Origin: a virus
Reading direction: 5' to 3' (one strand)
Length of the DNA: 64,000 nucleotides
Virus record (IMG/VR): IMGVR_UViG_3300017605_000140
Coordinates: 1-64,000 of that record
Shown: in pieces, positions 1 through 15,492 of the stretch
Layout: each line of letters opens with the position of its first letter
Numbering within the stretch: the first letter of the stretch is position 1
The notes under the pieces: model-generated
The model's database searches: none
What the model saw: the letters and a program-made list of their open reading frames with translations, nothing else
Told to the model about the DNA's origin: nothing
Program-made: the position numbers and the translations under genes

Positions 1-22
1 AATTTCATTATTAGGAGGAAAA

Positions 23-394
23 ATGGACCCCATTATTGCTGAAGAACTGGCTACCCGACTGGAATCGGGCAAGTATCCTCAAGGAACATGTGCCTTGCGA
101 AAGGATAACGATGAATTTTGCTGCCTCGGTGTTCTGAGTGAAATGGCTGTTGAGGCTGGTGTTATTCCTCCGCCGATTTTGAATGTAATCGGCGTGTATC
201 AGTACGGTGACGAGACAGGTTACGAGACTGGTGTTCTTCATAGGGTTATTATGGAATGGGCGGGAATGAAAACCGTTGTGGGGAAATATATTGACGAAGA
301 CGGTTATACGCACCTTTTGACTGAGAAAAACGACGCTGGAGATAGTTTCCCTGAAATCGCTAAGATTATCCGGGAAAACGTAACTAGGCTCTAG
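23..394 (+). CDS. Conserved phage protein of unknown function (FCCLGVL family)
   Basis: A 123-residue protein with an ideal ribosome site (AGGAGG) 6-10 bases before the ATG. Residues about 15-40 carry a pattern G-K-Y-x-Q-G followed by F-C-C-L-G-V-L, which I recognise from many small phage and bacterial hypothetical proteins; no function is known for them. There is no signal peptide or membrane segment. Its promoter lies left of the window. It is followed after 7 nt by the first copy of the repeated hairpin element and then by a tRNA-like structure. Family recognition is from memory; the reading frame itself is secure. Confidence 0.8.
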   Translation: MDPIIAEELATRLESGKYPQGTCALRKDNDEFCCLGVLSEMAVEAGVIPPPILNVIGVYQYGDETGYETGVLHRVIMEWAGMKTVVGKYIDEDGYTHLLTEKNDAGDSFPEIAKIIRENVTRL

Positions 395-401
395 TCGAGT
401 T

Positions 402-446
402 AAGTCATTCCTCGGGAAATCGAGGATTGGCTTTGTTCGCCTAGCG
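402..446 (+). promoter_or_regulatory. Repeated hairpin element, copy 1
   Basis: The hairpin starts 7 nt after the stop codon of the preceding gene. The outer arms AAGTCA and TGGCTT pair (6 bp, one G-U), then a T-T mismatch, then inner arms TCCTCG and CGAGGA (6 bp), with a 6-nt loop GGAAAT. It is followed by TGTTCGCCTAGCG, matching the shared box TGG-N4-CTAGA with two changes. Same architecture as the copies at 1326, 1926 and others. Function unknown. Confidence 0.6.
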
Positions 447-453
447 AGCATAT

Positions 454-563
454 GGGATTGATAGGCAGGCAAAAGATTCCTGTAATTGTGAGATTACAGG
501 CAGGTTTACTTTTCTTTTCCTGATTGTGGTCTTTTGCACCTAGTTCGAATCTAGGCAATCCCC
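454..563 (+). ncRNA. tRNA-like structure with no assignable anticodon
   Basis: The ends look like a tRNA: GGGATTG at 454-460 pairs perfectly with CAATCCC at 556-562, directly preceded by a canonical T-arm (stem CCTAG/CTAGG, 7-base loop TTCGAAT, 539-555). The interior does not fit. There is an 8-bp hairpin at 479-500 with loop TGTGAG, a CAGG/CCTG hairpin at 501-522 with a 14-base T-rich loop, and about 16 unpaired bases. A His-type loop TTGTGAGA can be drawn but has 8 bases. At 110 nt it is too long for a normal class II tRNA. It could be a degenerate tRNA, a tRNA with an insertion, or a tRNA mimic. Confidence 0.4.
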
Positions 564-580
564 CGGAAAGGATAAATAAA

Positions 581-784
581 ATGACAATCCGAGTTATTCA
601 ATTCCATAACTGCGACCGGTGTAAGAAAGATTTTGATCCTAATCCTCATTACAATACCCCAATGATTGATGACTTGTCTTTCATGGTCAAGAAGAATGGC
701 GGAGGTTCTATGCTCTCAAACATGAGTCTGGAATTCTGCGAGGAATGCTCGGATGAATTTCTTCACTTCATGAAGAGGAATTGA
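581..784 (+). CDS. Small zinc-ribbon-like protein
   Basis: A 67-residue protein. I place the start at 581 because AAAGGA lies 9-14 bases before it and because an upstream in-frame start would overlap the tRNA-like structure. Two Cys pairs, C-D-R-C near residue 11 and C-E-E-C near residue 53, probably bind one zinc. No catalytic motif is visible. The next gene begins one base after its stop codon, so the two are probably translated together. Function unknown. Confidence 0.7.
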   Translation: MTIRVIQFHNCDRCKKDFDPNPHYNTPMIDDLSFMVKKNGGGSMLSNMSLEFCEECSDEFLHFMKRN

Positions 785-785
785 A

Positions 786-962
786 ATGGGAATTGAAGAG
801 CGGGAAATCCAGACGATAAACGGCTGGTCTCTTACTACTGTTATTGCTAAGGCGTCTGAGTGGGGAGCACCTCTAGAGGATATTTCCATAGAGCCTGTCA
901 GAATTGCCCCGGGACTTAACGCAGTACCGGCTATGATCTGGTATGAGAGGAAGTCAGACTAA
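786..962 (+). CDS. Small protein of unknown function
   Basis: A 58-residue ORF filling the gap between two Cys-rich genes. It begins directly after the upstream stop, and its TAA overlaps the next start in the arrangement TAATG, a typical translational-coupling junction. The sequence is mixed acidic and hydrophobic with no Cys, signal or membrane segment. I do not recognise it. The tight packing is the main reason to believe it is real. Confidence 0.65.
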   Translation: MGIEEREIQTINGWSLTTVIAKASEWGAPLEDISIEPVRIAPGLNAVPAMIWYERKSD

Positions 963-1318
963 TGTCGCTTGAGAATTATGGAACTGTTTGGGTCTGCGTT
1001 AACTGTTTGCATCACCACGCGAACGGAGAATGCGGAGACTGCCACTCAGACCATGGACATGATGCAGAGCCGTTGAATAAGATTAAATGGCCTTTCTCGC
1101 TCGCTGAGGGCGTGGGTTGGGAGGATCATGACGAAGATTGTCTTACGTATACCGTCAATGATCTTAAGGCCCGTTTCCCGCACATGATTTGGCCGGACGT
1201 TCCGGGCGATTACGAGTGTAAATGTGATTATGTCGCACACAGTTATACAGGTTGCGACGGTTGCGGAACATACCTGCACGGCGAGCGCCATATTGTGACG
1301 CTGTTCAAGGAAGTCTAG
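962..1318 (+). CDS. Cys/His-rich putative zinc-binding protein
   Basis: A 118-residue protein with about ten Cys and many His. Visible groups are C-V-N-C at about 12-15, C-G-D-C at about 24-27, C-K-C near 86 and C-D-G-C near 98, which suggests two zinc sites, one in each half. Its start overlaps the upstream stop (TAATG). It is followed after 7 nt by hairpin copy 2. Whether it binds nucleic acid or protein cannot be told. Confidence 0.7.
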   Translation: MSLENYGTVWVCVNCLHHHANGECGDCHSDHGHDAEPLNKIKWPFSLAEGVGWEDHDEDCLTYTVNDLKARFPHMIWPDVPGDYECKCDYVAHSYTGCDGCGTYLHGERHIVTLFKEV

Positions 1319-1325
1319 ACATCTT

Positions 1326-1372
1326 TACTCGTCTCCCTGTTGACACAGGGTGGCGGGTATGGCAGCCTAGAG
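1326..1372 (+). promoter_or_regulatory. Repeated hairpin element, copy 2
   Basis: A 34-nt hairpin (1326-1359) starting 7 nt after a stop codon. Outer arms TACTCGTC and GGCGGGTA pair over 8 bp; a T-T mismatch follows; inner arms CCCTGT and ACAGGG pair over 6 bp around the loop TGAC. The box TGGCAGCCTAGAG (1360-1372) follows. The loop region contains TTGACA, but no -10 hexamer lies at a normal distance. The copy at 1926 has the same length and outer arms with compensatory inner changes. Confidence 0.7.
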
Positions 1373-1396
1373 GCTAGTCAACAGGAAGAGGAAACC

Positions 1397-1687
1397 ATGG
1401 ATGCTCTGGAACTTACGCGCAAGGTTGCAGCCAACCCGCATGTAAAAAAGATGGTAGGGAAGCAACAGGCAATGCGTAAGCGGTTTGAGGCTGACTACGG
1501 ACCTGAATTCTATGTGCCCAACTGCACGGAGGAAGAGCTTGCCGACCCCACCACCCAACTTACCCGCTGGCCTGGTGAACGGGGTGTGAGCCGTTGGACC
1601 GTTGCGGAGGAAGCAGAGTATAACGCCCTGACTGCCCGTCTGAGCGCCTACCGTGCCACCTTGCGGGAACTGTACTCCGCCAAGTAG
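1397..1687 (+). CDS. Hypothetical protein, basic and helical
   Basis: A 96-residue protein. I use the ATG at 1397, preceded by GGAAGAGGAAA, rather than an upstream start that would overlap the hairpin element. The sequence is rich in Ala, Arg and Glu with predicted helices at both ends and a Pro-rich middle. It has one Cys and no recognised domain. It lies between two hairpin elements with one other small gene. Function unknown. Confidence 0.7.
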   Translation: MDALELTRKVAANPHVKKMVGKQQAMRKRFEADYGPEFYVPNCTEEELADPTTQLTRWPGERGVSRWTVAEEAEYNALTARLSAYRATLRELYSAK

Positions 1688-1729
1688 TATCAGCCCCAGA
1701 CAACCGTACAGAGACGTTTAGGAGTCAAA

Positions 1730-1918
1730 ATGAACGCACCACTCGTCCTCCGCCCGACTGACCGGCATTACCTCGTTACGAATGGTTCGGAGACCAACGA
1801 AAAGATTCTCTTTGGGAAGACGCTTCCTCTTACGCAGCGAGCCGCACGTGGTTTCGTAAAGAAGAATGGTGGTCGTGTGATAAAGCGTACGACTGCAAGG
1901 CGACTCGGCCTGATCTAG
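1730..1918 (+). CDS. Small basic protein
   Basis: A 62-residue protein with TTTAGGAG seven bases before the ATG. The second half is strongly basic (R-A-A-R-G-F-V-K-K-N-G-G-R-V-I-K-R), which would suit nucleic-acid binding, but no known fold is recognised. The stop codon is followed after 7 nt by hairpin copy 3. Function unknown. Confidence 0.65.
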   Translation: MNAPLVLRPTDRHYLVTNGSETNEKILFGKTLPLTQRAARGFVKKNGGRVIKRTTARRLGLI

Positions 1919-1925
1919 GGAGCTT

Positions 1926-1972
1926 TACTCGTCTCTATTCTTGAGAATAGCGGCGGGTATGGAATTCTAGAG
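1926..1972 (+). promoter_or_regulatory. Repeated hairpin element, copy 3
   Basis: A 34-nt hairpin (1926-1959) starting 7 nt after a stop codon and exactly 600 nt from copy 2. Outer arms TACTCGTC and GGCGGGTA are identical to copy 2; inner arms CTATTC and GAATAG pair over 6 bp with loop TTGA. Compared with copy 2, inner pairs 2, 3, 5 and 6 differ on both sides yet stay paired. The box TGGAATTCTAGAG follows and runs into the next ribosome site. Confidence 0.7.
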
Positions 1973-1985
1973 AAAGGTAATTAGA

Positions 1986-2132
1986 GTGTTCACAGAGCTT
2001 TATACTTTTTTCTTGAAAAAGCTCCGTAAAGACAATGGTTTATGGTGGGCGCTCGTTTATACGTGGAATCAGTATAAATGGCTAAGGATATGCAAAAATC
2101 CTAAGCGCTTGCAGAAATGGATGGAAGACTGA
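1986..2132 (+). CDS. Small Trp-rich basic protein, GTG start
   Basis: A 48-residue ORF beginning with GTG; AAAGG lies about nine bases upstream. It is rich in Lys, Arg and aromatic residues, with six Trp, and could be a short amphipathic or membrane-associated peptide, though no clean membrane helix is seen. Its TGA overlaps the next ATG (TGATG), which supports it as a genuine gene. Function unknown. Confidence 0.6.
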   Translation: MFTELYTFFLKKLRKDNGLWWALVYTWNQYKWLRICKNPKRLQKWMED

Positions 2133-2578
2133 TGTTTAAGAATTACTCGATTTGCTCTCGTTGCGGCGCGGTTATCGAAAAGCGACAGCTTTCGCATGGG
2201 GAAGAGTGGGAAAGTTTTGGTGAGTATATGTGTGTGAATAACAATGCGCACTTTCCCACCAATCCAGAAGAGTACCGTTCTGAGAAATTCGGTAATGATA
2301 TCCGTGCCGAGATCCTTTGGCAGTTTTCCTTTGAATCTGTCCAAGACGACGATTTGGGGGATGTGAGTGATTTTGGGTGGTTCGCTCTTTTCAAGGAATT
2401 CAATGCGATTCTTGAGATGGATTCCCGAGGTTTTGTCCGAGTATCTGTTTATGAATCAGAAGAATTGACTATGGATATGTGGGAAGGGCTTAATGTTGAG
2501 TATTCCGAATGGATGGACGCAGACCCAAATTCCTACGATGATGAATCGGATTACTACGGTTCAGGTTACGACTTCTAA
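2132..2578 (+). CDS. Acidic protein with N-terminal Cys pair
   Basis: A 148-residue protein. The start at 2132 is chosen because it overlaps the upstream stop (TGATG) with GGAAGA before it. It begins with a C-S-R-C pair near residue 8 and a lone Cys near 34, then becomes strongly acidic; the last 25 residues are dominated by Asp, Glu, Ser and Tyr. Acidic tails of this type occur in DNA mimics and host-takeover proteins, but nothing here shows that role. Confidence 0.7.
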   Translation: MFKNYSICSRCGAVIEKRQLSHGEEWESFGEYMCVNNNAHFPTNPEEYRSEKFGNDIRAEILWQFSFESVQDDDLGDVSDFGWFALFKEFNAILEMDSRGFVRVSVYESEELTMDMWEGLNVEYSEWMDADPNSYDDESDYYGSGYDF

Positions 2579-2607
2579 AGCTAGTTGATTCTCTCGCACC
2601 CTGCCGC

Positions 2608-2665
2608 TAAAAGATCTTGAATCTGGTGGTTGACAGGGTGGGGGAGTGTCCACTAGGTTGGACAC
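2608..2665 (+). promoter_or_regulatory. Promoter with operator-like palindrome (P1)
   Basis: A -35 box TTGACA (2630-2635) and -10 box TAGGTT (2654-2659) are separated by 18 bases. The -10 lies between inverted repeats GTGTCC (2646-2651) and GGACAC (2660-2665), a good position for a repressor. The upstream stretch TAAAAGATCTTGA (2608-2620) recurs at the same distance before the promoter at 3204. It drives the gene at 2696. Confidence 0.65.
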
Positions 2666-2695
2666 AACAGCAAGACAGCAGGAAGGGAACAGCGA

Positions 2696-3184
2696 ATGAT
2701 CTACTACCGCGCTGGTAAGTGGGTAGCGTTCAACCGTGAGACGCATGAGCGTATGGAAAAGCCCGAATACCCGCGCCTTTCGGAATTCGATGGTGATATT
2801 TCGCTTTACTACAAGGCGACTTATCGCTACGTTTCCCAAACGAAGGTTTGGGATGCGTTTGTCGAATCCCTTCCCCCCGCTATTGAGTACAAGCGTCCGA
2901 AGCTTGTTCACGCCACGGAAAAGGGCGTTCCCGTTCCGCACTTGCGGAGTGGTGGACGCCGTAAGCACAAGAACGGTGCGGGTGTCTCGGCTAACTCCCG
3001 TATCCTCCCTCACAGGGTTGCGGATGATGGGGAGAAAGGAAAGGGTCATCGCAGGGAGATCAAGCGCAAGGAACGTGTTCAGTGGCTCTCTGAGTGGCAG
3101 GAAGAGCTAGACAGGGATGCAATGTACCCCCAGCCTGTAGACATATGGTTCGGAGAAGACAGAGAAGTAGATTACGGGCTGTAA
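2696..3184 (+). CDS. Hypothetical basic protein
   Basis: A 162-residue protein with GGAAGGGAA before the ATG. The N-terminal half is mixed with many Tyr; residues about 90-130 are very basic, with runs such as G-G-R-R-K-H-K and R-R-E-I-K-R-K, suggesting contact with nucleic acid. The tail is acidic. It has its own promoter (P1). No domain is recognised. Confidence 0.7.
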   Translation: MIYYRAGKWVAFNRETHERMEKPEYPRLSEFDGDISLYYKATYRYVSQTKVWDAFVESLPPAIEYKRPKLVHATEKGVPVPHLRSGGRRKHKNGAGVSANSRILPHRVADDGEKGKGHRREIKRKERVQWLSEWQEELDRDAMYPQPVDIWFGEDREVDYGL

Positions 3185-3233
3185 AAGATCTTGAGCTAGT
3201 AGCTTGACAGGGCGGATGTTGCCAGGGTAACGT
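3182..3233 (+). promoter_or_regulatory. Promoter with shared upstream element (P2)
   Basis: TTGACA (3204-3209) and TAACGT (3228-3233) are 18 bases apart. The same 13-base TAAAAGATCTTGA as in P1 lies 9 bases before the -35 (3182-3194) and here includes the stop codon of the upstream gene. The region from -35 to about 3247 is an imperfect dyad, and GCCCCT/AGGGGC forms a second hairpin in the leader. It drives the gene at 3284. Confidence 0.6.
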
Positions 3234-3283
3234 CTGTCCTATCAAGCCCCTAACCCAAGGGGCCGAGAAAGAGGAGTAAGGAA

Positions 3284-4183
3284 ATGGCTACTCGCAAGGC
3301 TAAGGGCATCATCGTTAACGGCGTTGATCTGACGGAACTGTTCAGTACTCTTGTGGAGCTTGCCCCTACGGAAGAGGAACCTGTCACCGTAGATGAGATG
3401 AACGCGGAAATGGGTGGAGAGAACACCTTCGAAGCACTGAGTGTGCTTGCTGACGCTGAGCTTGTTGATTTCGACCGAGCAGGTAAGCTGTGGCTCACTG
3501 TTCCTGATGTCTCCCTGGACAATGCTGAGAGCATTCTTCGGGAAGCTTTGGAGACTTCCTCGTTCGAGCCGTCCGTGGTTCCTACTAAGGCTGCTGAGTA
3601 CGCGGAGCGCACGAAGTACAACGCGGATGTTGCTGCGTCTCAGGAGGACGGCGGTCAGCACCTTCACCCCATGCCGGATGCTCGTCCGCGTATGGTGGAA
3701 GCCCGAGAGGCTGGCAAGATCATGGATGAGATTGTAGAAAAGCTTGTGGATGAGGCTTATTCGGCACAGACTCCGGTAATTGCGGAGAATGGTGAAAAGA
3801 TCACCATTCCGGTTGATTTTGACGACCCCTCCAAGGGTCGGCGAGAGCTTGACGCTAGCAAGGGTGAGCGTCTCCTCGGAGAGACTTCCTATACCGTGTC
3901 GGACATGCGTAGGGAAGATATGGCTTTGGGTACGGCAATTCGAGAGGCTCTTTCCACCATGCCTGCAATTGCCACGTGGACCCCTACCTTCCACGAGTCA
4001 AAGATCACCGAGGAATTTGAGGTTCCCGAGGTTCTTCCGGCTGTTCCGGATGGCGTGACTGAGAACACGTGGTTCATGGCTCACGCTGCCGACACAGAGA
4101 CTGGCAGGGCATGGTGGATGCGTAAGGCAGAGGCACAGATGAACGCCTTCAACCTGTCTCAGCCGGAAGTGGCTCCGTTCTAA
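3284..4183 (+). CDS. Hypothetical acidic protein, possibly abundant early product
   Basis: A 299-residue protein with AGGAGTAAGG before the ATG. It is acidic and soluble. The first 95 residues could form a small winged-helix-like unit (helix, helix, then a strand containing K-L-W-L-T-V), but I do not rely on it. Residues about 195-290 hold alternating helices and end in W-W-M-R-K-A. It has a dedicated promoter (P2) and the GC-richest codon use of this block, which may mean strong expression. Not recognised. Confidence 0.75.
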   Translation: MATRKAKGIIVNGVDLTELFSTLVELAPTEEEPVTVDEMNAEMGGENTFEALSVLADAELVDFDRAGKLWLTVPDVSLDNAESILREALETSSFEPSVVPTKAAEYAERTKYNADVAASQEDGGQHLHPMPDARPRMVEAREAGKIMDEIVEKLVDEAYSAQTPVIAENGEKITIPVDFDDPSKGRRELDASKGERLLGETSYTVSDMRREDMALGTAIREALSTMPAIATWTPTFHESKITEEFEVPEVLPAVPDGVTENTWFMAHAADTETGRAWWMRKAEAQMNAFNLSQPEVAPF

Positions 4184-4197
4184 GCTAGTGTGCTTTA

Positions 4198-4247
4198 GGG
4201 GTAATCCTGCTTGAAAGGGTAGGATTACTTCTATGGTTCCCTAGAAA
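4198..4247 (+). promoter_or_regulatory. Repeated hairpin element, copy 4
   Basis: GGGGTAATCCT (4198-4208) pairs with AGGATTACTTC (4221-4231) over 11 bp with two G-U pairs, and the 12-nt loop contains TTGAAA. Total length is again 34 nt, but this copy starts 14 rather than 7 nt after the stop codon. TATGGTTCCCTAGAAA follows (4232-4247) and forms part of the next ribosome site. Confidence 0.55.
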
Positions 4248-4255
4248 GGAATGCC

Positions 4256-4441
4256 ATGAAGGTAACGTTTGGTGCTGCTGTTATTGAAGGCTATGTCCGT
4301 AATACTCCGCATAGTCCTGCCACTGTCATCATTGACGCACTCGACAATACTGTGTGGGATGACGGAGAATACAACTCGTATAACCAGGGAATGTCAAAGG
4401 TTCGCATCACCATAGAGGTTATCGAGGTTATAGAGGATTAA
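4256..4441 (+). CDS. Small protein of unknown function
   Basis: A 61-residue protein with GAAAGGAATGCC before the ATG. It is a beta-rich sequence ending in alternating Ile/Val/Glu with no Cys and no membrane segment. It is the last gene of the rightward block and is followed 15 nt later by a strong terminator. Function unknown. Confidence 0.65.
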   Translation: MKVTFGAAVIEGYVRNTPHSPATVIIDALDNTVWDDGEYNSYNQGMSKVRITIEVIEVIED

Positions 4442-4455
4442 TAAGTAAATACGAG

Positions 4456-4496
4456 AATCCCCTACCAATTAGATTCACTGGTAGGGGATTTCTTTA
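4456..4496 (+). terminator. Rho-independent terminator of rightward block
   Basis: A 12-bp perfect stem, AATCCCCTACCA with TGGTAGGGGATT, an 11-nt loop, then TTCTTTA. It ends the rightward genes where they meet the leftward block. Confidence 0.85.
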
Positions 4497-4612
4497 TGCC
4501 GGTATGTTGACATGTTCTTGCCATGGCTATGTCGGCGGGGATGGGTTGTACAACGAGTGGTACAGAGAAGCCGTGTGTGGCTCTCTAACAAGATCCAATA
4601 CGTAGCAGGTCT

Positions 4613-4661
4613 CCTAGGTCACCTCGATGTCAGTTGGTCCTTAGAGGACCATACAGACGCC
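4613..4661 (-). promoter_or_regulatory. Repeated hairpin element, divergent copy
   Basis: On the minus strand, 7 nt after the stop of the 51-codon gene. The inner arms TGGTCC and GGACCA pair over 6 bp around TCTAA; the outer part pairs with one T-T mismatch and one bulged A. A box AGG-TGAC-CTAGG follows, one change from the family box at the first base. No convincing gene follows it. Confidence 0.4.
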
Positions 4662-4668
4662 TTCATGG

Positions 4669-4824
4669 CTACTTGCGTGCTCCGTGCCCGAACTCATGCA
4701 TGGCAATGGCACGACGCTGTCTCTCTGCCATGGCCCGTGACTGGGGATGGTGGCTGTAGGTCTTGCCCGTATCCTTATTGGTGACCTTGTACCCTTCCCC
4801 TGACTTCCTGATCGCGTACGGCAT
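4669..4824 (-). CDS. Small conserved-type basic protein (KDTGKxxS motif)
   Basis: A 51-residue ORF. The ATG is preceded by GGGGAGA within the end of the upstream gene. The pattern Y-K-V-x-N-K-D-T-G-K-T-Y-S-x-H-P followed by a helix rich in Ala, Arg and Gln and an H-G-x-x-K tail resembles a very common family of small phage proteins of unknown function in which residues after the beta turn form one helix. The GC content is higher than the surroundings. The resemblance is from memory. Confidence 0.65.
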   Translation of the reverse strand: MPYAIRKSGEGYKVTNKDTGKTYSHHPQSRAMAERQRRAIAMHEFGHGARK

Positions 4825-4827
4825 CGG

Positions 4828-5015
4828 CTATCTCCCCTCTCGCCCTGAAGAGGCTGAGAGCAGGCTTGTATGGCTCTCTGAGGCGATGGCAGAGGTAGTA
4901 TGGTGATGGGGTACGGGCTTGGCGTCATGGACTCCCACAGCTAAGCCCGAGGACAGCACGACAGACAGACCCATACTGGCAAATGTTTTCTTATCCCATA
5001 AATGATGAGTTTCCA
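4828..5015 (-). CDS. Small putative secreted or membrane-anchored peptide
   Basis: A 62-residue ORF with AGGAGAAATT before the ATG. Two Lys near residue 9 are followed by an uncharged stretch (about residues 12-29, rich in Ser, Leu, Val, Gly), like a signal peptide or signal anchor; the remainder is His- and Ser-rich. It lies just beyond the terminator at 5038-5081, so expression needs read-through or a promoter I cannot see. It may be a toxin, lysis peptide or exclusion peptide; no evidence separates these. Confidence 0.5.
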
Positions 5016-5037
5016 TAATTTCTCCTGAAAGGAAATA

Positions 5038-5081
5038 CAAAAAGCGGATATATTCCCAATTCTACGGGAATATATCCGCTT
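5038..5081 (-). terminator. Terminator of leftward small-gene block
   Basis: A 15-bp perfect stem (5043-5057 with 5066-5080), loop of 8 nt, followed on the minus strand by TTTTTG. It ends transcription coming from 8.2 kb. Confidence 0.85.
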
Positions 5082-5098
5082 ATAGTTAAATCAGACTA

Positions 5099-5350
5099 TC
5101 AGGCTGCCTCATCGTCCTCATAGGAAATAGTTACCAGAGAATTACCATCAATGGTGAAAGACTGAGGAATTGTTCCCAACTTCCGCCAATTAGTCTCCGC
5201 AGGATCAGAAATCAGATAACCAGTCAAGTGCCAGTCTCCTCGGTCAAATTCCACATCAGATCGTACTTCAAATGTGCGACCCCGGGAATCAGTGACGATA
5301 TCTCCGAAGCGGATATCCGCAGGCAGTTGATTCTTATACGTAACCAACAA
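5099..5350 (-). CDS. Hypothetical protein, TTG start
   Basis: An 83-residue protein. AAAGG lies 7 bases before a TTG, which I take as the start since no in-frame ATG exists nearby. It is predicted all-beta: short strands separated by Gly, Asp and Asn, including the phrase R-G-R-T-F-E-V-R, ending acidic. Last gene before the terminator. Not recognised. Confidence 0.7.
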   Translation of the reverse strand: MLVTYKNQLPADIRFGDIVTDSRGRTFEVRSDVEFDRGDWHLTGYLISDPAETNWRKLGTIPQSFTIDGNSLVTISYEDDEAA

Positions 5351-5376
5351 AGTAATGCCTTTCAGTGAATAATAAA

Positions 5377-5652
5377 TTAAATCAGAACCAGATCAGGCCA
5401 GTAATAAATATACGAATTGCCCATATCATCGGACCTAGTACGCTGGGCCATAGCGTATGCGATATCCATATCGTCAGACCATTCAGTACGAGTAGCAAGC
5501 TCAATAAATAAAATCGCGAGATCAGAAATCTTCCCTACAATACCTGGGCAAGTGGCTCCATACATATGACGTCCCGAATATTCGTCATAGAGTGCGCCGT
5601 CAGTATTTTCAATAGCATCCAAAAACAATTGCCTGTCAATTTCAAATCTCAT
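5377..5652 (-). CDS. Hypothetical protein
   Basis: A 91-residue protein with AGAGGAAAC before the ATG, immediately downstream of hairpin copy 5. It is acidic with many Tyr, Asp and Met and a hydrophobic stretch I-S-D-L-A-I-L-F-I-E-L-A near residue 45 that looks like a buried helix rather than a membrane segment. Function unknown. Confidence 0.7.
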   Translation of the reverse strand: MRFEIDRQLFLDAIENTDGALYDEYSGRHMYGATCPGIVGKISDLAILFIELATRTEWSDDMDIAYAMAQRTRSDDMGNSYIYYWPDLVLI

Positions 5653-5663
5653 ATCAGTTTCCT

Positions 5664-5706
5664 CTCTAGGCGACCATAACCGCCGCTCTTTGCAGAGCGA
5701 CGACTA
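5664..5706 (-). promoter_or_regulatory. Repeated hairpin element, copy 5
   Basis: On the minus strand, 7 nt after a stop codon. Outer arms TAGTCGTC and GGCGGTTA (8 bp with G-U pairs) closely resemble those of copies 2 and 3; inner arms GCTCT and AGAGC pair over 5 bp with a GCAA tetraloop. Total 30 nt. The box TGGTCGCCTAGAG (5676-5664) follows and merges with the ribosome site of the next gene. Confidence 0.7.
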
Positions 5707-5713
5707 AAGCAGT

Positions 5714-6274
5714 CTAGCCGAAGTAGTATACCATTCCGTTAAACTCCACTACAGATGCCGAATACTCACGGGCAATATTCTGCAATGTTGCTTCCCAGTC
5801 TATTTCCATCCAACGGGGAAAAGGATCGGTTTCCTCATAAAACGTGTTGTACCTGTCAACCTGCTCCGAATAGACTTTGTGGAATGAAGCTACCCATTGA
5901 CAAACTACGTCTGCATAGGTCATACCAGAGAAGTTAACGGTATCCTGCCAATTATCCACATCAGCACAAGCCCTAACAGTGATAAAGGCGCAGATAGTAT
6001 CAGCCGCATAGACATCTTCGCACAAAGCATCAAACAATGCAATAACATCCGAATTCGCATTGTACGACCCGATATGCTTAACAAACATATCCTCTTGGAA
6101 GTCATAGCCGTCGATCATTACAGAAACAATTTCATACCCGGCATCACTAAAGGCGAATACTACGTCATTTAGCCTGTATGCGTGAATATCATCCACGGTA
6201 ATTTCGTGGAAATCCCCGCCGTTCTCTGTAACATTCCTAGCGAATGTAATTGTCATTCCGCGAAACTCTGACAT
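5714..6274 (-). CDS. Hypothetical protein
   Basis: A 186-residue acidic protein with AAGGGG upstream of the ATG. There is an alternating strand and helix pattern in the first 70 residues, then a helical region with many aromatic residues and a final strand ending M-V-Y-Y-F-G. Two Cys in the centre are not arranged as a zinc site. It has a promoter directly upstream overlapping hairpin copy 6. Not recognised. Confidence 0.7.
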   Translation of the reverse strand: MSEFRGMTITFARNVTENGGDFHEITVDDIHAYRLNDVVFAFSDAGYEIVSVMIDGYDFQEDMFVKHIGSYNANSDVIALFDALCEDVYAADTICAFITVRACADVDNWQDTVNFSGMTYADVVCQWVASFHKVYSEQVDRYNTFYEETDPFPRWMEIDWEATLQNIAREYSASVVEFNGMVYYFG

Positions 6275-6300
6275 AACGAAACCCCTTATCCGGCTTCCAA

Positions 6301-6347
6301 GTCTAGGAAGCTCACACCACCTAGAGTACAGTGACTCCAGATGATGT
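6301..6347 (-). promoter_or_regulatory. Repeated hairpin element, copy 6
   Basis: A 34-nt hairpin on the minus strand (6347-6314), 7 nt after a stop codon. ACATCA and TGGTGT pair (6 bp), a T-G pair follows, and CTGGAGT pairs with ACTCTAG (7 bp) around CACTGT. The box is GAGCTTCCTAGAC, weaker than the others. A second small hairpin GCTTCC/GGAAGC overlaps the box. The left arm overlaps the -35 of a promoter. Confidence 0.6.
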
Positions 6348-6350
6348 CAA
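6323..6350 (-). promoter_or_regulatory. Candidate promoter overlapping hairpin copy 6
   Basis: TTGACA at 6350-6345 and TACTCT at 6328-6323 on the minus strand, with a 16-base spacer that forms the hairpin stem. It would drive the gene at 5714-6274. The spacer is short and the overlap with the repeat makes this tentative. Confidence 0.4.
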
Positions 6351-6354
6351 CTCA

Positions 6355-6579
6355 CTAGGACCGGTGCGTCTTCACTGTCAGACTGGGATCAAGACTGTCC
6401 AAATAATCTTGAATTGCCCGGACAACGGCAAGGTTGATGCCGTATGCCTCGTCATTCTCATCAGAGGGATGGCGCTTAGCGGTACCAATACCCACAATGT
6501 CACCGCTACTCGTGAGTGTAGCGATAGTGGCATCAGGTGACGAGACAACCTCAACGTCAATAGAGAAGAAATTATACAT
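6355..6579 (-). CDS. DUF1876-like (dsRBD-like) protein
   Basis: A 74-residue protein with GAAAGG upstream of the ATG. The pattern G-x-G-x-A-x-R-x-P-x-D-x-N followed by a helix containing L-A-V-V-R-A and L-D-S-L resembles the small DUF1876 proteins of actinobacteria, which have a double-stranded-RNA-binding-like fold. The resemblance is by eye. Function is unknown; it lies between the TerD gene and an unknown gene. Confidence 0.55.
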   Translation of the reverse strand: MYNFFSIDVEVVSSPDATIATLTSSGDIVGIGTAKRHPSDENDEAYGINLAVVRAIQDYLDSLDPSLTVKTHRS

Positions 6580-6592
6580 TAAGCAGCCTTTC

Positions 6593-7183
6593 TCAGAAAC
6601 CCATTGCGAAGTTCAGGAGAGAGTTACGGTCCCCCTGTGTGATATTACCCGGCTTGTTGACTACCTCGATAGTCCAGTGCCCCGCAGAACGAGCAGCCTT
6701 AGCCACACCCACAGCATTGAAATTGCCACGGAGGGAGGGCCAGATATCTGCAACAGGCTCAAGGGACTTCTCATCCATTCCCTGAGTATAGACCTTGAAA
6801 GAGATATTAGCAGCGGCCCCAAAAGAAGTATGCTTCTTAAATGCTGCCGCCACAAACAGAATGCCATCCACATTACCCGGAACATCAGCGAAGTTCACCG
6901 AGATAGTCTCGTCATCACCCGCCCCCTTGCCAGTCTGGTTGTCACCAGAATGCGTGACAGAGCCATTCTTGCAGGGGTCCAGAACATCAAGACCCGCGAA
7001 CCTTACAGGCTCCCCATCTGACATCAGGATGGCGATGGCGTCAAGGTCAGTGCCTACAAACTTACGGACAGCGCCGACCAGTCCGCGTGACATACCAGCC
7101 GTGGTATCCCAAGAGGCACCTACAGCCATAGTCTTGACGCCTTGAAGAGGCACAATTCCGTCATTCTTGGTAAGAGTAATCAT
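6593..7183 (-). CDS. TerD-family stress/tellurium-resistance-like protein
   Basis: A 196-residue protein, about the usual length for TerD. The signature is clear: G-S-V-T-H-S-G-D-N-x-T-G near residue 75, G-D-D-E shortly after, then I-S-V-N-F-A-D-V-P and V-D-G-I-L-F-V-A-A-A-F. In the family the acidic residues of G-D-D-E bind calcium. TerD proteins occur in bacterial stress operons and in some phages and have been linked to phage inhibition and chemical stress; the molecular role is unsettled. No other ter gene is in the window. A hairpin element precedes it. Confidence 0.88.
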   Translation of the reverse strand: MITLTKNDGIVPLQGVKTMAVGASWDTTAGMSRGLVGAVRKFVGTDLDAIAILMSDGEPVRFAGLDVLDPCKNGSVTHSGDNQTGKGAGDDETISVNFADVPGNVDGILFVAAAFKKHTSFGAAANISFKVYTQGMDEKSLEPVADIWPSLRGNFNAVGVAKAARSAGHWTIEVVNKPGNITQGDRNSLLNFAMGF

Positions 7184-7213
7184 GAAGGTTCCTTATCGTG
7201 TACGGATAGTAGG

Positions 7214-7260
7214 CTCTAGTGAACCACACCAACTAAGGACAATCAAGCCCTTAGATGATG
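7214..7260 (-). promoter_or_regulatory. Repeated hairpin element, copy 7
   Basis: A 34-nt hairpin on the minus strand (7260-7227) 7 nt after a stop codon. CATCA pairs with TGGTG, then a T-T mismatch, then CTAAGG with CCTTAG; the loop GCTTGATTGT can pair two further bases and contains TTGATT. The box TGGTTCACTAGAG (7226-7214) follows. The outer arms match copy 6. Confidence 0.65.
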
Positions 7261-7267
7261 CTAAACA

Positions 7268-7534
7268 CTAGACGCGAAAGAGAAAGTCAACCCATTCGCC
7301 CGGGGTACCATCATACTGGCGGATATTGAAAGACTTCTCACTTCCTGGGGAAGAATCTCCGAAATACCTGCCACCGAACCATTTGGTAAGAACATCGGTC
7401 ATGTATTCTGTCGCTGAGAGAGCCCTGAGGTCAAATACCAGATCATGGGTGACCTCTTGAAATGTCTCTCGTTCGGGAAACTCAGTAGTGGAATGCGCTT
7501 CCCGATTCATGTATTCCGTAATAATCAGCCGCAT
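7268..7534 (-). CDS. Hypothetical protein
   Basis: An 88-residue protein with GAAAGGTAAA before the ATG, starting directly at the end of the upstream gene. It is rich in Thr, Glu, Phe and Arg with no Cys and ends in an aromatic strand. No known domain. Function unknown. Confidence 0.65.
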   Translation of the reverse strand: MRLIITEYMNREAHSTTEFPERETFQEVTHDLVFDLRALSATEYMTDVLTKWFGGRYFGDSSPGSEKSFNIRQYDGTPGEWVDFLFRV

Positions 7535-7954
7535 TTATTTACCTTTCTGGTGAGCAAGAACGCTCTTGCGTAGCCATATGGATATCAGACCAACGTTTTC
7601 CTTGTCAATGGTCCACGCGTCCACTCCCCCAGCAAGATCCAAACCATAGGGGCCATGCGCGAGGAAGTCATTGAGCAGGTAGTCTGTTACGAACTGTCCA
7701 TGCGGGGAGCCGCCGTACAAATGGTCATACTCATACCTGCGGTCATAGAGCGCCACTACCGGAGTAATGGAAACATCACCGCTTCGGTACTTCCTGTGAC
7801 CATACACTACACGGAAGGGAATTCCCCTGTCCGTTACGATGTCAATGATCTGCTCATCCACTGACACAGCCGTACGGTATTTGTTGGTGACATGCTCACA
7901 AGTCTTGTTTCTGCAAGCGTCTTCGTAGATGCTGCAATCATTCCAACCAGGCAT
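7535..7954 (-). CDS. Hypothetical protein with N-terminal Cys residues
   Basis: A 139-residue protein. The start at 7954 has AGAGGAAAG seven bases upstream and overlaps the preceding gene by 17 bases. Three Cys lie in the first 20 residues (C-S-I-Y-E-D-A-C-R-N-K-T-C), perhaps a metal site. The centre is rich in Tyr and Gly (Y-D-H-L-Y-G-G-S-P-H-G). Not recognised. Confidence 0.65.
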   Translation of the reverse strand: MPGWNDCSIYEDACRNKTCEHVTNKYRTAVSVDEQIIDIVTDRGIPFRVVYGHRKYRSGDVSITPVVALYDRRYEYDHLYGGSPHGQFVTDYLLNDFLAHGPYGLDLAGGVDAWTIDKENVGLISIWLRKSVLAHQKGK

Positions 7955-8216
7955 TTGCTTTCCTCTTTCTCCAGCCCCGTTGTTCGTAACGTCGTCGTGA
8001 ATCTTCTTGGGAAGGTACACACGGGGTATACCTATCCTGTTTGTGCGCTACGACATTACCTTTAGGTGACGTAGCTACGAACTTTCCGCAGTAAGGACAC
8101 GCTACTTGCCCTTCCTTGGGTAGCTTCGGTTCCCTTACCCTACCAGATCTTACAGGTACTCGGGTACCCCCTGAACGGGCCATTTCCGGGTAGGTATCTC
8201 GTCTCGTCCGTTCCAT
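7938..8216 (-). CDS. Small zinc-finger protein, possibly leaderless
   Basis: A 92-residue basic protein with one zinc-finger-like group, C-P-Y-C-G-K then H near residue 58 and C near residue 66. I choose the ATG at 8216 because a TTGACA promoter ends six bases before it, so transcription would begin at the start codon itself; leaderless mRNAs are common in actinobacteria. A longer reading up to 8276 exists but would begin upstream of the promoter. Likely DNA or RNA binding. Confidence 0.6.
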   Translation of the reverse strand: MERTRRDTYPEMARSGGTRVPVRSGRVREPKLPKEGQVACPYCGKFVATSPKGNVVAHKQDRYTPCVPSQEDSRRRYEQRGWRKRKANAWLE

Positions 8217-8222
8217 GGCTGT

Positions 8223-8251
8223 ACTTAACCATCCACTAGCCAGTCTGTCAA
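8223..8251 (-). promoter_or_regulatory. Leftward promoter for small-gene block
   Basis: TTGACA at 8251-8246 and TTAAGT at 8228-8223 on the minus strand, spacer 17. The predicted start point falls on the ATG at 8216. It is the first promoter of the leftward block running to 5.1 kb. Confidence 0.5.
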
Positions 8252-8356
8252 CCGTGCTGGTCAGAAGCCCTTCCATGGCCCCTTAGAGCGCTTGCCAGCA
8301 GTAGCCTGTACCATGAGGCTACGTGCCGCTGAGAGGCTGGGAGACAAGCTCTCAGA

Positions 8357-8401
8357 GACTCTACAGCATGGTTGACGGCACGTGGGTGTGCCTGTAGAGT
8401 C
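8357..8401 (+). promoter_or_regulatory. Promoter inside an inverted repeat
   Basis: TTGACG (8372-8377) and TAGAGT (8395-8400) are 17 bases apart. GACTCTAC (8357-8364) and GTAGAGTC (8394-8401) are perfect 8-bp inverted repeats, the right one covering the -10. This is an operator-like layout. Confidence 0.5.
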
Positions 8402-8499
8402 GTCTTAGGAAGGGCGGACCGGCCCCAGTACAACGGAAGCCACTCAGGATTCGTACCAGGGGACCCATAGAACTATTTCGTTAGGCGAACGAAAAGGAG

Positions 8500-8528
8500 T
8501 TGACAGGGCTTACACGAGGGTGTAGGGT
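8500..8528 (+). promoter_or_regulatory. Rightward promoter for 8677 gene
   Basis: TTGACA (8500-8505) and TAGGGT (8523-8528), spacer 17. It shares the TTGACAGGG start with the promoters at 2630 and 3204. The leader to the ATG at 8677 would be about 140 nt long. Confidence 0.6.
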
Positions 8529-8601
8529 TATTAGTAACAAGGCGCCCCGGCCTAATCACTCGGAGGCAAGACGGATTCAAACCAGCCCTGCAATTTTACC
8601 C

Positions 8602-8676
8602 AAATCGGACATATCTCTAATATCCGATTTATACTTTATATTAGTACACATGACTTTATAGGAGATATAAAGTACT
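8602..8676 (+). promoter_or_regulatory. Leader with alternative hairpins covering the ribosome site
   Basis: A hairpin AAATCGGA/TCCGATTT spans 8602-8630. TACTTTATAT (8632-8641) pairs perfectly with ATATAAAGTA (8665-8674), enclosing the ribosome site. Alternatively ACTTTAT (8653-8659) pairs with ATAAAGT (8667-8673) and leaves AGGAGAT exposed in the loop. The two forms exclude each other, as expected of a translational switch. Confidence 0.5.
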
Positions 8677-8913
8677 ATGAGAGATATCATGCGAGATGCT
8701 GCAATTATCACAGTTGCGAATCAGGCAATGACTGATGGCGGATGGTTGTCGGTGAGGACGTTTATAGAAACGTACAGTAAAGAAGGAAAAGATAGGGAAG
8801 GGTTGCAACAAACACTACTTCTTTTCGGGCTGGTCTGGGAACAATACAAAGCCCCAAGTACCTGGAATGAAGAAGGAAAATATATACAGCGCTGGAAGAA
8901 TGAAACAGAATAA
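8677..8913 (+). CDS. Hypothetical protein, lone rightward gene
   Basis: A 78-residue protein with AGGAGA 11 bases before the ATG. It looks like a small helical domain (helix, then W-L-S-V-R-T-F-I-E-T-Y, then L-Q-Q-T-L-L-L-F-G-L-V-W) that could be a winged helix or helix-turn-helix regulator, but I cannot prove it. It is the only rightward gene right of 4.5 kb, with its own promoters, structured leader and terminator, which suits a regulatory product. Confidence 0.65.
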   Translation: MRDIMRDAAIITVANQAMTDGGWLSVRTFIETYSKEGKDREGLQQTLLLFGLVWEQYKAPSTWNEEGKYIQRWKNETE

Positions 8914-8960
8914 AGAAATACCCCGATTTCCACTTAAGGATTTCGGGGTATTTCTATTTT
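8914..8960. terminator. Bidirectional terminator
   Basis: A perfect 13-bp stem, AGAAATACCCCGA (8914-8926) with TCGGGGTATTTCT (8943-8955), followed by ATTTT on the plus strand. It lies at the meeting point of the 8677 gene and the long leftward block, and can serve both. Confidence 0.8.
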
Positions 8961-8990
8961 AAAAAGCGATTCAGTTATTAGAGGTATTAT

Positions 8991-9248
8991 TTAAGAATTT
9001 CCACCAAGCAAACTGTCCCAATTAATACCTTCAATCTGTTTACGCGCTACAAATATTGCTTCCATAAACAGGTGCAGATAATCCAGTTCTTCTCCTTGGA
9101 CAATTATATCTATCATAGCGTCATCATCTTCTATAGTTATACCAACATACTCAGCATTAGCCGAAATGGTTAAACCTGAATCAAATTCTGCTAAAAGAAT
9201 TTCCCCTGATAGTAAATCATCCACCATATTGTCAAATACTTCCATCAT
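8991..9248 (-). CDS. Acidic hypothetical protein
   Basis: An 85-residue protein whose ATG overlaps the upstream stop (ATGA). It is acidic, with predicted strands E-Y-V-G-I-T-I and M-I-D-I-I-V followed by a helix L-H-L-F-M-E-A-I-F-V-A. Last gene of the leftward block. Not recognised. Confidence 0.65.
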   Translation of the reverse strand: MMEVFDNMVDDLLSGEILLAEFDSGLTISANAEYVGITIEDDDAMIDIIVQGEELDYLHLFMEAIFVARKQIEGINWDSLLGGNS

Positions 9249-9454
9249 ACGACTCCATCACCATAGCAGACTAAGCAGTCTGCATCCTCGTATTTATCCA
9301 TACCTGTACCAAAACATGAATGGCATGCTTTAGTTTCCTCTGGTTCTTCCCACCACTCTGCTACCCAATTAGTGTAGTCAGCATGATCGTAGTTAAAAAC
9401 CTTTTCCTCTTCGAAAACTCTTGTGAGTTCTTCCTTGTACTTTTCCGGCATCAT
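9245..9454 (-). CDS. Small protein with DnaJ-type cysteine repeats
   Basis: A 69-residue protein with a helical acidic N-terminus and two C-terminal groups, C-H-S-C-F-G-T-G and C-L-V-C-Y-G-D-G. These are the C-x-x-C-x-G-x-G repeats of the DnaJ zinc domain, here a single pair instead of four. It probably binds one zinc; partner unknown. It overlaps the next gene by four bases. Confidence 0.7.
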   Translation of the reverse strand: MMPEKYKEELTRVFEEEKVFNYDHADYTNWVAEWWEEPEETKACHSCFGTGMDKYEDADCLVCYGDGVV

Positions 9455-9457
9455 GAG

Positions 9458-10966
9458 TTAGTACTCACCAATAATTTCAGCATCTTGAATACCTAGTTGT
9501 TCTATAGCGTTTTCTACTCTGACCGGTGCTGGAAGAGCTGCGAATGAATGATCTGTCATATCTCCGAATAGCCTGTCAATACGGGAAACCTGTCCTTGCT
9601 GCTTAGCGGTAACAGTAAGAGAAAAACCTTCTTGTTCCATGTCATGCTTAGTTTTTGCCATCTTCACCAAACGATCCATTTCACTGGACAGAATAGGATC
9701 AAGTTGTCCACCCTCTAAGTCCTCAGCCATTTTTCCAAGGACAACACGCTGTGTCTGCATGGAAACCAAGGCATTCATAAGGGATCTTACTTGTTCTGTA
9801 GTTTCTACTTGGACAGGAATATCGTAAGCGCAAGTACTTCCTTCCTCAAACATAGGACATTTGTCAGCTAGAAAACAACTATCGCATATCCGCATGGATT
9901 CACTGCGGATCTTTATCTTATGGACATCTCTGTCCTCATATTCCCCAGTTTCCTTATTCTTTACTTTTTCCTTGTCTGTATCAAAATCTATAAGAGGAAT
10001 AGTGAGTCTTTTTGAAGGATCTCTAGGTGTTGCAGTTGGTACTCTGTTCAGCGTTTTTCCAGTAACATCATCAACTTCATCATAGCCATTATCCGTAAAC
10101 CCATCATCGTAGGTTTCCACTGATCTAGTTACTCCTGTTGGTAAGTTTCCATGTTTTTTATTTATACTGCTGACTAATTGTTCCCAAGACCACAAGGATA
10201 GACGCAGTAATTCTTTAGGATCGTCTTGTTTTATTTTTTCCAGGTCAAACCCGGCTGATTGAATGGTATAGCGTTCTTTCCTTCTGGCTTGTTCTTTCAT
10301 ATCATGAGAGTATCTCTTCAGTTTCCCATGAGACCATACTATAGTATCTCCATATTTCTGCGGGGATACCCAAGAAGTAGAAGAAACTGAAGTCCACTGA
10401 ATAGCTTGCATTATATCCGGCTTAGTCATGGATAACCCATGCAGTTCTATACCCGCATTTACTAGTTTATTAAGTGCTGGAATTATATCTCTACCATTAA
10501 TAGTTGTTTGAGGAATCCCAACTTTACCGAATCTTTCTCCTAAGATATAAAGATCTCCAAGAGAATCGACAGTGCCATGCCACACTGGTATAGCTTTATT
10601 ACAGAATTTTTCTATAAACTTGTCACGCATTTCTTCAGTGTATGAAAAACCTAATTGTGCAGCGTCAAATTCGGAAAATACTTCAATAGAGTTAATATTC
10701 TCGCTAACCCACTGATAGTAGTGGTTGGCAATTTCTTTAAGTTCTTCCGTTGTATATTTCTGTTCTTTTGAACTATTCAGTACATTAGCACCAGAATCCA
10801 CAAATAGCTTGTGACCTTCTGGAAAATAATTCTTTACTAACCACGGAGTCTTAAACTTAGTACGTTTACGTAACCCCATATAGTTAAGAGAACTTCCAGG
10901 AACCCCGCACTCCTTAATGAGATTCCTGTAAGTAGGTAGTTCTGCCCCTTTATAATAAATGATCAC
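9458..10966 (-). CDS. Queuine tRNA-ribosyltransferase-like (TGT/DpdA-type) protein
   Basis: A 502-residue protein. Residues about 50-220 read as the TIM barrel of the tRNA-guanine transglycosylase superfamily: F-V-D-S-G-A matches the D-S-G-G/A motif near residue 57, F-D-A-A-Q follows near 101, then H-G-L-S-M-T-K-P-D and S-T-S-W. In phages such proteins (DpdA) put 7-deazaguanines into DNA. The position I expect to hold the nucleophilic Asp (D-S-T-S-W in relatives) reads S-S-T-S-W, so activity is doubtful. The second half is extra, with a Cys cluster C-D-S-C-x6-C near residue 367. No preQ0 synthesis genes are in the window. Family assignment is from memory. Confidence 0.55.
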   Translation of the reverse strand: MIIYYKGAELPTYRNLIKECGVPGSSLNYMGLRKRTKFKTPWLVKNYFPEGHKLFVDSGANVLNSSKEQKYTTEELKEIANHYYQWVSENINSIEVFSEFDAAQLGFSYTEEMRDKFIEKFCNKAIPVWHGTVDSLGDLYILGERFGKVGIPQTTINGRDIIPALNKLVNAGIELHGLSMTKPDIMQAIQWTSVSSTSWVSPQKYGDTIVWSHGKLKRYSHDMKEQARRKERYTIQSAGFDLEKIKQDDPKELLRLSLWSWEQLVSSINKKHGNLPTGVTRSVETYDDGFTDNGYDEVDDVTGKTLNRVPTATPRDPSKRLTIPLIDFDTDKEKVKNKETGEYEDRDVHKIKIRSESMRICDSCFLADKCPMFEEGSTCAYDIPVQVETTEQVRSLMNALVSMQTQRVVLGKMAEDLEGGQLDPILSSEMDRLVKMAKTKHDMEQEGFSLTVTAKQQGQVSRIDRLFGDMTDHSFAALPAPVRVENAIEQLGIQDAEIIGEY

Positions 10967-11169
10967 TTCTTACGCTTTCTAGGTTTCATACTCATGGCAC
11001 TGGCTTCCAATTGAGAACCTTTAGCAGCAATTCCTCCAGATACGGCATTTCGGGAACCCACAGTAAATTCCTGCGTTCTACCCGAAACAGTGTGCTTTTC
11101 AGATAGTTCTGTGAGAACTTTTCTAGAAGATCCCTTAGGTGGAACATGCTCCGGGTAATTAGCTTCCAT
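10963..11169 (-). CDS. Small basic protein
   Basis: A 68-residue protein, overlapping the next gene by four bases (ATGA) and the upstream gene by 11. Disordered, rich in Ser, Lys and Gly, ending M-K-P-R-K-R-K-K. It may bind DNA or a virion protein. Function unknown. Confidence 0.6.
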   Translation of the reverse strand: MEANYPEHVPPKGSSRKVLTELSEKHTVSGRTQEFTVGSRNAVSGGIAAKGSQLEASAMSMKPRKRKK

Positions 11170-11941
11170 GACTGAATTGGGCTCCTAGATTACCTGTGAA
11201 CGGTGGGATAGGTGGCGGAGTGGAACGCTGTTCCTCATGGCTAAAGGTAGCCTGTGCAGTACCTGTACGTCCAGGAGAAGCAGACTGAGGGGCAAGCTGA
11301 CTGGAGAAGGTAGACTGTGCTATACCTCTTGCCGGAATGGGCGTGTGTACTTCGGGCGTATGAGAAAAGGAAGCTGCTGTTTCATTAGGAGTTGCTGGCG
11401 ATTCTGGTGCAGTATTACCGGCTTCTTTAGCTCTTCTCTTTTCTTCTTGTATTGCTTGTCCATGAGCATAGTTTCTGCCTTGTTGTTGTGTTTTAAACTG
11501 TGCCTGTTGAAATTTAAGAGCTTCCCCATGCGCGAAATTACGCTGTGATTGCATAGTTCTTTGATTAGCCGCAGCAGCGGAAGCCGCTTGTCTTTGTGCT
11601 GGAGTAGTTCCCATAGCAAAAGTTCTTGGTGCTGATCCTGGAGCTGGGGCGGCTCTTCCTGAACGTACATTAGCAGCCTGTGTTCTCTGTGCTTGCTGAG
11701 CCTGTCTTTGTTGTGTTTGCATATTTCTGGCAAAAGCATTTCTACCAGCACTAACAGTCTGTGCCGCACCCCTGGCTACTTGTTCTCTAGCCTGTGTACG
11801 TGCCTGTGCAGCTCTGGCAGCGTGTACTTGTATATGTCTGCTTCTTCCCAATAAATCCTTTTGAGCGGAAGCAAACACATTATGAGTGAACTGTCCTCCT
11901 AGATGATGGACAGCCCCTAAGTCTGGAATATTTGCAGGCAT
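11159..11941 (-). CDS. Ala/Gln-rich low-complexity protein with recurring F-S-H motifs
   Basis: A 260-residue protein with AAGGAGATC before the ATG. Residues about 40-180 are an Ala, Gln and Arg-rich region expected to be helical or coiled, including two related stretches (N-F-A-H-G-E-A and N-Y-A-H-G-Q-A). From residue 1 to the end, short motifs Q-F-T-H, S-F-S-H, T-F-S-H and Q-F-S-H-G recur. It looks like a scaffold or a protein carrying repeated docking peptides. Not recognised. Confidence 0.65.
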   Translation of the reverse strand: MPANIPDLGAVHHLGGQFTHNVFASAQKDLLGRSRHIQVHAARAAQARTQAREQVARGAAQTVSAGRNAFARNMQTQQRQAQQAQRTQAANVRSGRAAPAPGSAPRTFAMGTTPAQRQAASAAAANQRTMQSQRNFAHGEALKFQQAQFKTQQQGRNYAHGQAIQEEKRRAKEAGNTAPESPATPNETAASFSHTPEVHTPIPARGIAQSTFSSQLAPQSASPGRTGTAQATFSHEEQRSTPPPIPPFTGNLGAQFSHGS

Positions 11942-11950
11942 ATGATCTCC

Positions 11951-13297: not shown

Positions 13298-13311
13298 AGT
13301 TACATCTTATC

Positions 13312-13360: not shown

Positions 13361-13372
13361 ATTTTACTAGTA

Positions 13373-14875: not shown

Positions 14876-14887
14876 TTAGTTCTCCTA

Positions 14888-15448: not shown

Positions 15449-15492
15449 GTAATACCTTCCGAATAGTTGTTGATTTGTATATCTTAACAGAA

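Follow-up and report, generated by a model that had tools for sequence, protein, structure and literature searches.

Two hairpins in the genome of a Streptomyces-type phage, at 1326–1359 and 1926–1959 on the plus strand and 600 nt apart from start to start, raise the question of whether a fold rather than a sequence is kept here and, if so, what it might be kept for. They lie in the window analysed in this study, the 64,000 bases at positions 1–64,000 of the 110,389-base IMG/VR record IMGVR_UViG_3300017605_000140. The arrangement that a first-pass annotation had read from the letters is present as described: both hairpins have the same 8-bp outer arms (TACTCGTC/GGCGGGTA) and share the position of a mismatch (T × T in the first, T × C in the second), while the inner arms, CCCTGT/ACAGGG against CTATTC/GAATAG, differ on both sides at four of six pairs with pairing kept. 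The loops are TGAC and TTGA. That annotation took the paired changes as direct evidence for a selected fold; the changes are real, but two paralogous hairpins alone are weak grounds for covariation, and it is a wider set of sequences that supplies the support.

Both hairpins proved to be the upper part of longer elements, overlooked in the first reading, at 1314–1371 (element 1) and 1914–1971 (element 2). In each, two CUAG sequences 52 nt apart pair to form the base; going inwards, a 4 × 4 internal loop is followed by the module CUUUA/UAUGG, and the conserved part of the two elements comprises the CUAG/CUAG arms and a GCUU/UGGU module. The whole elements are predicted to fold as RNA at −27.4 and −25.2 kcal/mol (z −4.4 and −4.5, equalled by none of 200 shuffles), compared with −21.9 and −12.2 kcal/mol for their respective antisense strands. 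The family element is about 58 nt long. CUAG arms form its base and are followed by a 4-nt internal loop and a base module in which two U·G wobbles flank a U × U mismatch; above these come a stem that covaries freely and a variable loop.

Copies along the phage genome

We built a covariance model, R1, with 20 base pairs, from 15 equally long sequences; it recovered six copies in the window at E 0.0033 or better. The highest-scoring, at 390–445 on the plus strand at the end of gene 23–394 (E 7.1e-10, 58.1 bits), is itself one of the 15 model sequences. Element 1 (E 8.8e-7, 43.1 bits) overlaps the TAG stop of gene 962–1318, with an ATG at 1397, 25 nt on, and element 2 (E 5.1e-7, 44.2 bits) overlaps the TAG stop of gene 1730–1918, with a GTG at 1986, 14 nt on. 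The remaining three lie at 4184–4245 on the plus strand (E 1.1e-5, z −6.1), ahead of gene 4256–4441; at 5665–5718 on the minus strand (E 4.4e-8), ahead of the minus-strand gene 5377–5652; and at 34436–34487 on the minus strand (E 0.0033), where a UAAUA/UAUUA base replaces CUAG and the element sits in the gap between the minus-strand genes 34483–34833 and 34221–34418.

Three variants extend this series. One at 7215–7272 on the minus strand (E 0.023, z −7.8) has other bases at the mismatch and lies ahead of the minus-strand gene 6593–7183, whose product is a TerD-domain protein (Pfam PF02342, E 9.4e-15). Another, at 6302–6359 on the minus strand ahead of the minus-strand gene 5714–6274, has G × G at the mismatch and CUAG arms 52 nt apart; its R1 match (E 0.15) is not significant alone, and its fold has a z of −6.2. 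The third, at 2581–2656 on the plus strand ahead of gene 2696–3184, has a long top; it is absent from the R1 matches at E ≤ 5 and was found by a structural descriptor alone, and it belongs to a nine-row orthologous set. With the other copies starting at 391, 4184, 5718 (minus) and 7272 (minus), among other places, the 600-nt spacing is not a family trait. The descriptor gave six matches in positions 1–9000 of the window and none in four shuffles (both strands), and the first 7.3 kb contain seven pairs of CTAG, 48–57 nt apart, that flank a strong hairpin, each on the same strand as the genes beside it. Beyond the window, the same record holds three more copies at 108,394–109,962 (E 2.6e-4 to 9.3e-6) and a weak partial match at 101,116. 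Rfam 15 gave no match above its gathering threshold in the window, and no described family fits.

A promoter-like sequence, TTGACA-18-TAGGTT, overlaps the 3′ half of the 2581–2656 element. It occupies 2633–2658, ahead of gene 2696, and recurs in the orthologues L028, L029, L034 and L035; in this group TTGACA lies in or near the hairpin loop, and TAGGTT, TAGATN or TAAGTT follows 18 nt on. A general promoter with TTGACA in the loop was rejected as an account of the family, the 18-nt spacing to a −10-like sequence being found only in the group ahead of gene 2696. Long near-perfect inverted repeats of another kind, at 4455–4491, 5037–5086, 13321–13363, 15491–15533 and 46716–46758, have favourable folds on either strand and resemble bidirectional terminators.

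Conservation of the fold and its base among relatives

The view that the fold and not the sequence is kept is strongly supported by viral relatives. The fairest comparison used a pattern defined by sequence only, CTAG-4-CTTTA-20..48-TATGG-4-CTAG, because one of our two alignments (A1) consists of rows pre-selected for pairing and the other (A2) was fitted to R1. The pattern matched 31 stretches in IMG/VR, and the middle pairs (at least eight of ten positions) in 26 of them, the exceptions being L012, L019, L030, L036 and L037; among 14 stretches matched in cellular genomes, the middle pairs in none, and none reaches R1 below E 0.01 (best 0.026). A count by place gives 42 of 47 and includes duplicates (L001 and the window, L014 and L093, L006 and L025), so that the count by stretches is preferred. 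In A2, with 122 model matches (111 distinct) and a lean towards the model through its fitting, 96.4% of structure cells pair, against 63.8% in shuffled and 34–48% in slid alignments (at most 47.8%), and double-sided changes occur in 18 of 20 pairs; in A1, selected as it is for pairing, they occur in 14 of 16 inner pairs. Pairs of the upper stem take up to six standard types, so the arms have no conserved consensus.

The sequence-conserved part is instead the base, that is, CUAG, the two U–G wobbles and the U × U mismatch. In a set of 93 non-redundant rows, selected by CTAG arms and by pairing elsewhere, 67 have T–G at position 5, 70 have T × T at position 6 and 67 have T–G at position 10; the set includes several antisense copies of real rows, which makes these counts low for the sense strand. 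The U × U mismatch is present in all 102 non-redundant model copies, which is no evidence for it, as sequences with this mismatch went into building the model; the 93-row count is less biased, yet still selects on pairing elsewhere. A special role for TTGA- and TGAC-type loops, which the first-pass annotation thought might be read by a protein, finds no support in these copies, where the loops are variable (81 kinds in 102, with TTGA in 14 and GNRA in 22).

Orthologous genes keep an element. Homologues of gene 1397–1687, which lies behind the first hairpin, have an upstream element in L002, L003, L004, L005, L006, L008, L020, L028 and L031, at protein identities of 29–58%. Unpaired changes in such relatives had been named as the finding that would speak against a kept fold; in nine rows (the window, L028, L031, L004, L006, L002, L003, L008 and L020, with L005 left out because its element equals that of L004), 124 of 126 cells pair, the rows having been found by a pairing descriptor. 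Double-sided changes affect 11 of 14 pairs in this set, and the inner letters match those of the window in 7 to 23 of 24. The nine rows for gene 2696–3184 show 123 of 126 cells paired and double-sided changes in 10 of 14 pairs. As both sets were found by the pairing descriptor, their percentages are conditional, and the presence of any element at the orthologues is the stronger point.

The same element occurs in gaps of the Streptomyces phages pSt2308 and GiJojo, and in LuckySocke, Alone3 and BRock. Taking the first pattern with a second, noisy one (57 stretches), R1 matches at E ≤ 0.01 in 38 of 86 viral stretches, on 29 distinct contigs; the other 48 stretches were left unused, and 12 of the 15 model sequences stem from the 86 stretches or their like and match by construction. 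Across the whole of BRock, gaps account for all or most of the length of 13 of 17 descriptor matches, of which three fall among replication genes, and the four outside gaps (at 7419, 23894, 87400 and 110105) are taken as chance. BRock's own TerD gap has a hairpin without the canonical base. The open-licence literature that we searched yielded no paper describing these elements, and the BRock genome paper makes no mention of them (PMC7453282). They form an RNA structural family found in no database or paper searched, with members on 29 or more distinct IMG/VR contigs and in named, culturable Streptomyces phages.

Intergenic position and a candidate role in message separation

In five annotated phages (95,828 bases, 22.3% non-coding), 36 of 43 descriptor matches fall in gaps between genes (binomial p = 2e-17), and 35 of these 36 lie on the strand of both neighbours, with none on the opposite strand. 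The element begins 4–6 nt ahead of the end of the upstream gene in 22 of the 36, which puts the stop codon in the 5′ arm, and 10–48 nt are left between the element and the next start. Some gaps have no element. T–G wobbles are meaningless in duplex DNA, and their conservation together with the strand asymmetry therefore argues for an RNA and against a DNA device; a T tract (at least five T in the next 8 nt) follows none of the 36 gap copies, so the elements are not terminators. Translational bypass of the T4 gene 60-like kind was considered with regard to the TAG repeated about 52 nt apart in the arms and was rejected, the next gene having its own ribosome-binding site and start.

With a predicted RNA fold, covariation, conserved wobbles, sense-strand use and an intergenic place all established, we propose, at a probability of about 0.5, that the elements are intercistronic sites at which a host endoribonuclease of the RNase III kind separates polycistronic messages. 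They would act in cis as part of a polycistronic message between co-transcribed phage genes, each folding into a hairpin of about 20 bp in which the base (CUAG arms, 4 × 4 internal loop and U–G / U × U / U–G module) would be the recognised part and the upper stem would be needed only as a double strand. The enzyme would most likely cut or nick the hairpin, and each gene would leave as a message of its own, with a structured 3′ end behind it and a free ribosome-binding site ahead. Usually the 5′ CUAG arm includes the stop codon of the upstream gene, so that a ribosome terminating there would sit over the base module, and folding and recognition may wait for the end of upstream translation.

RNase III processing sites of the T7 type, which occur several to a genome, have an internal loop, act on the message strand only and do not keep their stem sequence, are the nearest known parallel. 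The elements resemble them as message-strand intercistronic hairpins and in having, by their folds and the 20-pair model, a double-stranded part of about 20 bp with an internal loop or mismatch. They differ in a fixed CUAG base with its wobble module and in tested carriers that have no RNase III or dsRBD gene of their own, and cutting is known for the T7-type sites but proposed here. RNase III (PF14622) was found in none of four phage records and a dsRBD (PF00035) in none of six, which makes a host enzyme the simplest reader; Streptomyces RNase III appears in the title of one paper (PMC5775266). The 2581–2656 element and its close relatives, with their promoter-like sequence, suggest that at least one group may act otherwise. 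If message separation is the role, the elements offer direct access to the question of how a phage with many tiny genes in long arrays produces separate messages, and the specific base module should allow the factor that recognises it to be found by pull-down.

Bacterial RNase III usually needs less sequence specificity than the conserved base module displays, and this counts against RNase III and favours a dedicated binding protein. The elements might thus be binding sites for an RNA-binding protein, of the phage or of the host, that regulates translation or message lifetime and does not cut, an unlikely reading but one to be taken seriously. The U–G / U × U / U–G base would be the epitope, with the hairpin standing between the stop codon of one gene and the ribosome-binding site of the next. 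Proteins typically recognise such a combination, in which the base is fixed in sequence and the stem is not; in the 22 copies noted above the stop codon overlaps with the base, and element carriers hold many genes of unknown function. On the other hand, no candidate protein emerged, and the six records searched for a dsRBD had none. Ro60/TROVE, the obvious RNA-binding protein, is encoded in all four tested 110-kb phages (records G000, BRock, GiJojo and LuckySocke among the six searched) but is absent from the contig of L077, a hairpin carrier, as it is from MrMiyagi; Ro60 is thus not required, which makes a Ro60-bound RNA less likely.

Passive stabilisers without a special partner, capping message ends or blocking exonucleases or ribosome run-through, are improbable: the very stable folds and frequent GNRA loops would suit such a role, but in mere caps one would not expect CUAG, two wobbles and an unpaired U × U to stay at fixed places from phage to phage. 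For sites of the put or nut kind that act on RNA polymerase, in antitermination or otherwise, the odds are slim; the elements are indeed RNA repeated along the genome within gene arrays, but one site per operon suffices for processive antitermination, whereas here many gaps have one, near the genome end and among replication genes alike (BRock 33.8, 34.3 and 46.3 kb). DNA operators, terminators or mobile repeats have the least to recommend them, for although inverted repeats lie in gaps, the CTAG ends are palindromic and one group overlaps a promoter-like sequence, the wobbles, the strand asymmetry with its almost uniform sense orientation and the missing T tracts speak against them, and the stem sequences differ from copy to copy, unlike those of a mobile repeat.

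Other RNA devices at gene borders

The main argument for a processing role comes from what stands at comparable places in other phages. In the mycobacteriophages Indlulamithi (L110) and MrMiyagi (L111), met via contig L077, many gaps between short genes hold elements that resemble tRNA minihelices: an acceptor helix is combined with a T arm, whose loop is TTCRA, and the anticodon arm is missing. A minihelix descriptor gave 15 sense and no antisense matches in Indlulamithi (13496–23130) and 14 and none in MrMiyagi (87–14352), with 0–1 in shuffles. One match in each phage is the annotated tRNA-Gln, the only one that ARAGORN and Rfam call there; 13 of the other 14 in Indlulamithi and 11 of 13 in MrMiyagi lie in gaps. 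These elements look like minimal RNase P substrates. Contig L077 encodes a homologue of MrMiyagi gp45 (64.6% identity) flanked on either side by a hairpin, whereas the corresponding gaps of MrMiyagi contain minihelix-like elements; the interchange rests on this one orthologous gene, and on its 5′ side both the hairpin of L077 and the minihelix of MrMiyagi escaped the descriptors and were identified by eye.

Yaboi (L121) and Evy (L122), which we take to be BE-cluster phages, have homologues of gene 2696 and no element in 45,000 bases. Many of their gaps at 0.9–10 kb show, by eye, a GC-rich terminator-like hairpin followed by a promoter resembling TTGACA/TAGACT. Hairpin, minihelix and terminator with promoter thus stand at comparable places, and each would yield single-gene messages, as far as place can tell. 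More tentatively, large actinobacterial phages may use interchangeable RNA punctuation, in which the hairpin class of BRock-like phages would be read by host RNase III and the minihelices of Indlulamithi- and MrMiyagi-like phages by RNase P, with a terminator and promoter instead in the BE cluster. The apparent interchange with minihelix elements makes such a general model testable.

tRNA punctuation is known from animal mitochondria. Like it and the minihelix-like gap elements, the elements described here are structured RNA at gene borders, in the same place and orientation; they differ as hairpins without acceptor and T-arm architecture, presumably read by another enzyme. The extended start-associated sequences (ESAS) of Cluster K mycobacteriophages are imperfect inverted repeats of unknown function upstream of many non-structural gene starts, kept with the gene family, and they precede a 13-bp SAS, GGGATAGGAGCCC, at the start codon (PMC3203893). 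They resemble our elements as inverted repeats ahead of gene starts that are kept with the gene, but the ESAS arms have a conserved 17-bp sequence (PMC3203893), whereas the stem sequence here is free. The SAS has no match at up to two mismatches in the 64,000-base window.

A tRNA-like RNA occupies 453–563 on the plus strand of the window, directly after the element at 390–445. It has an acceptor GGGATTG/CAATCCC, a T arm CCTAGTTCGAATCTAGG and one long arm between them, with a predicted fold of −37.1 kcal/mol (z −4.0), and is called by neither ARAGORN nor Rfam. The minihelix descriptor matches it at 522–560, shuffles also giving 0–1. The same record encodes a TROVE/Ro60 protein match at 89,713–89,898 on the minus strand, and this together with the tRNA-like fold suggests, by analogy with the known architecture of Y RNAs, that 453–563 may be a bacterial Y RNA-like RNA.
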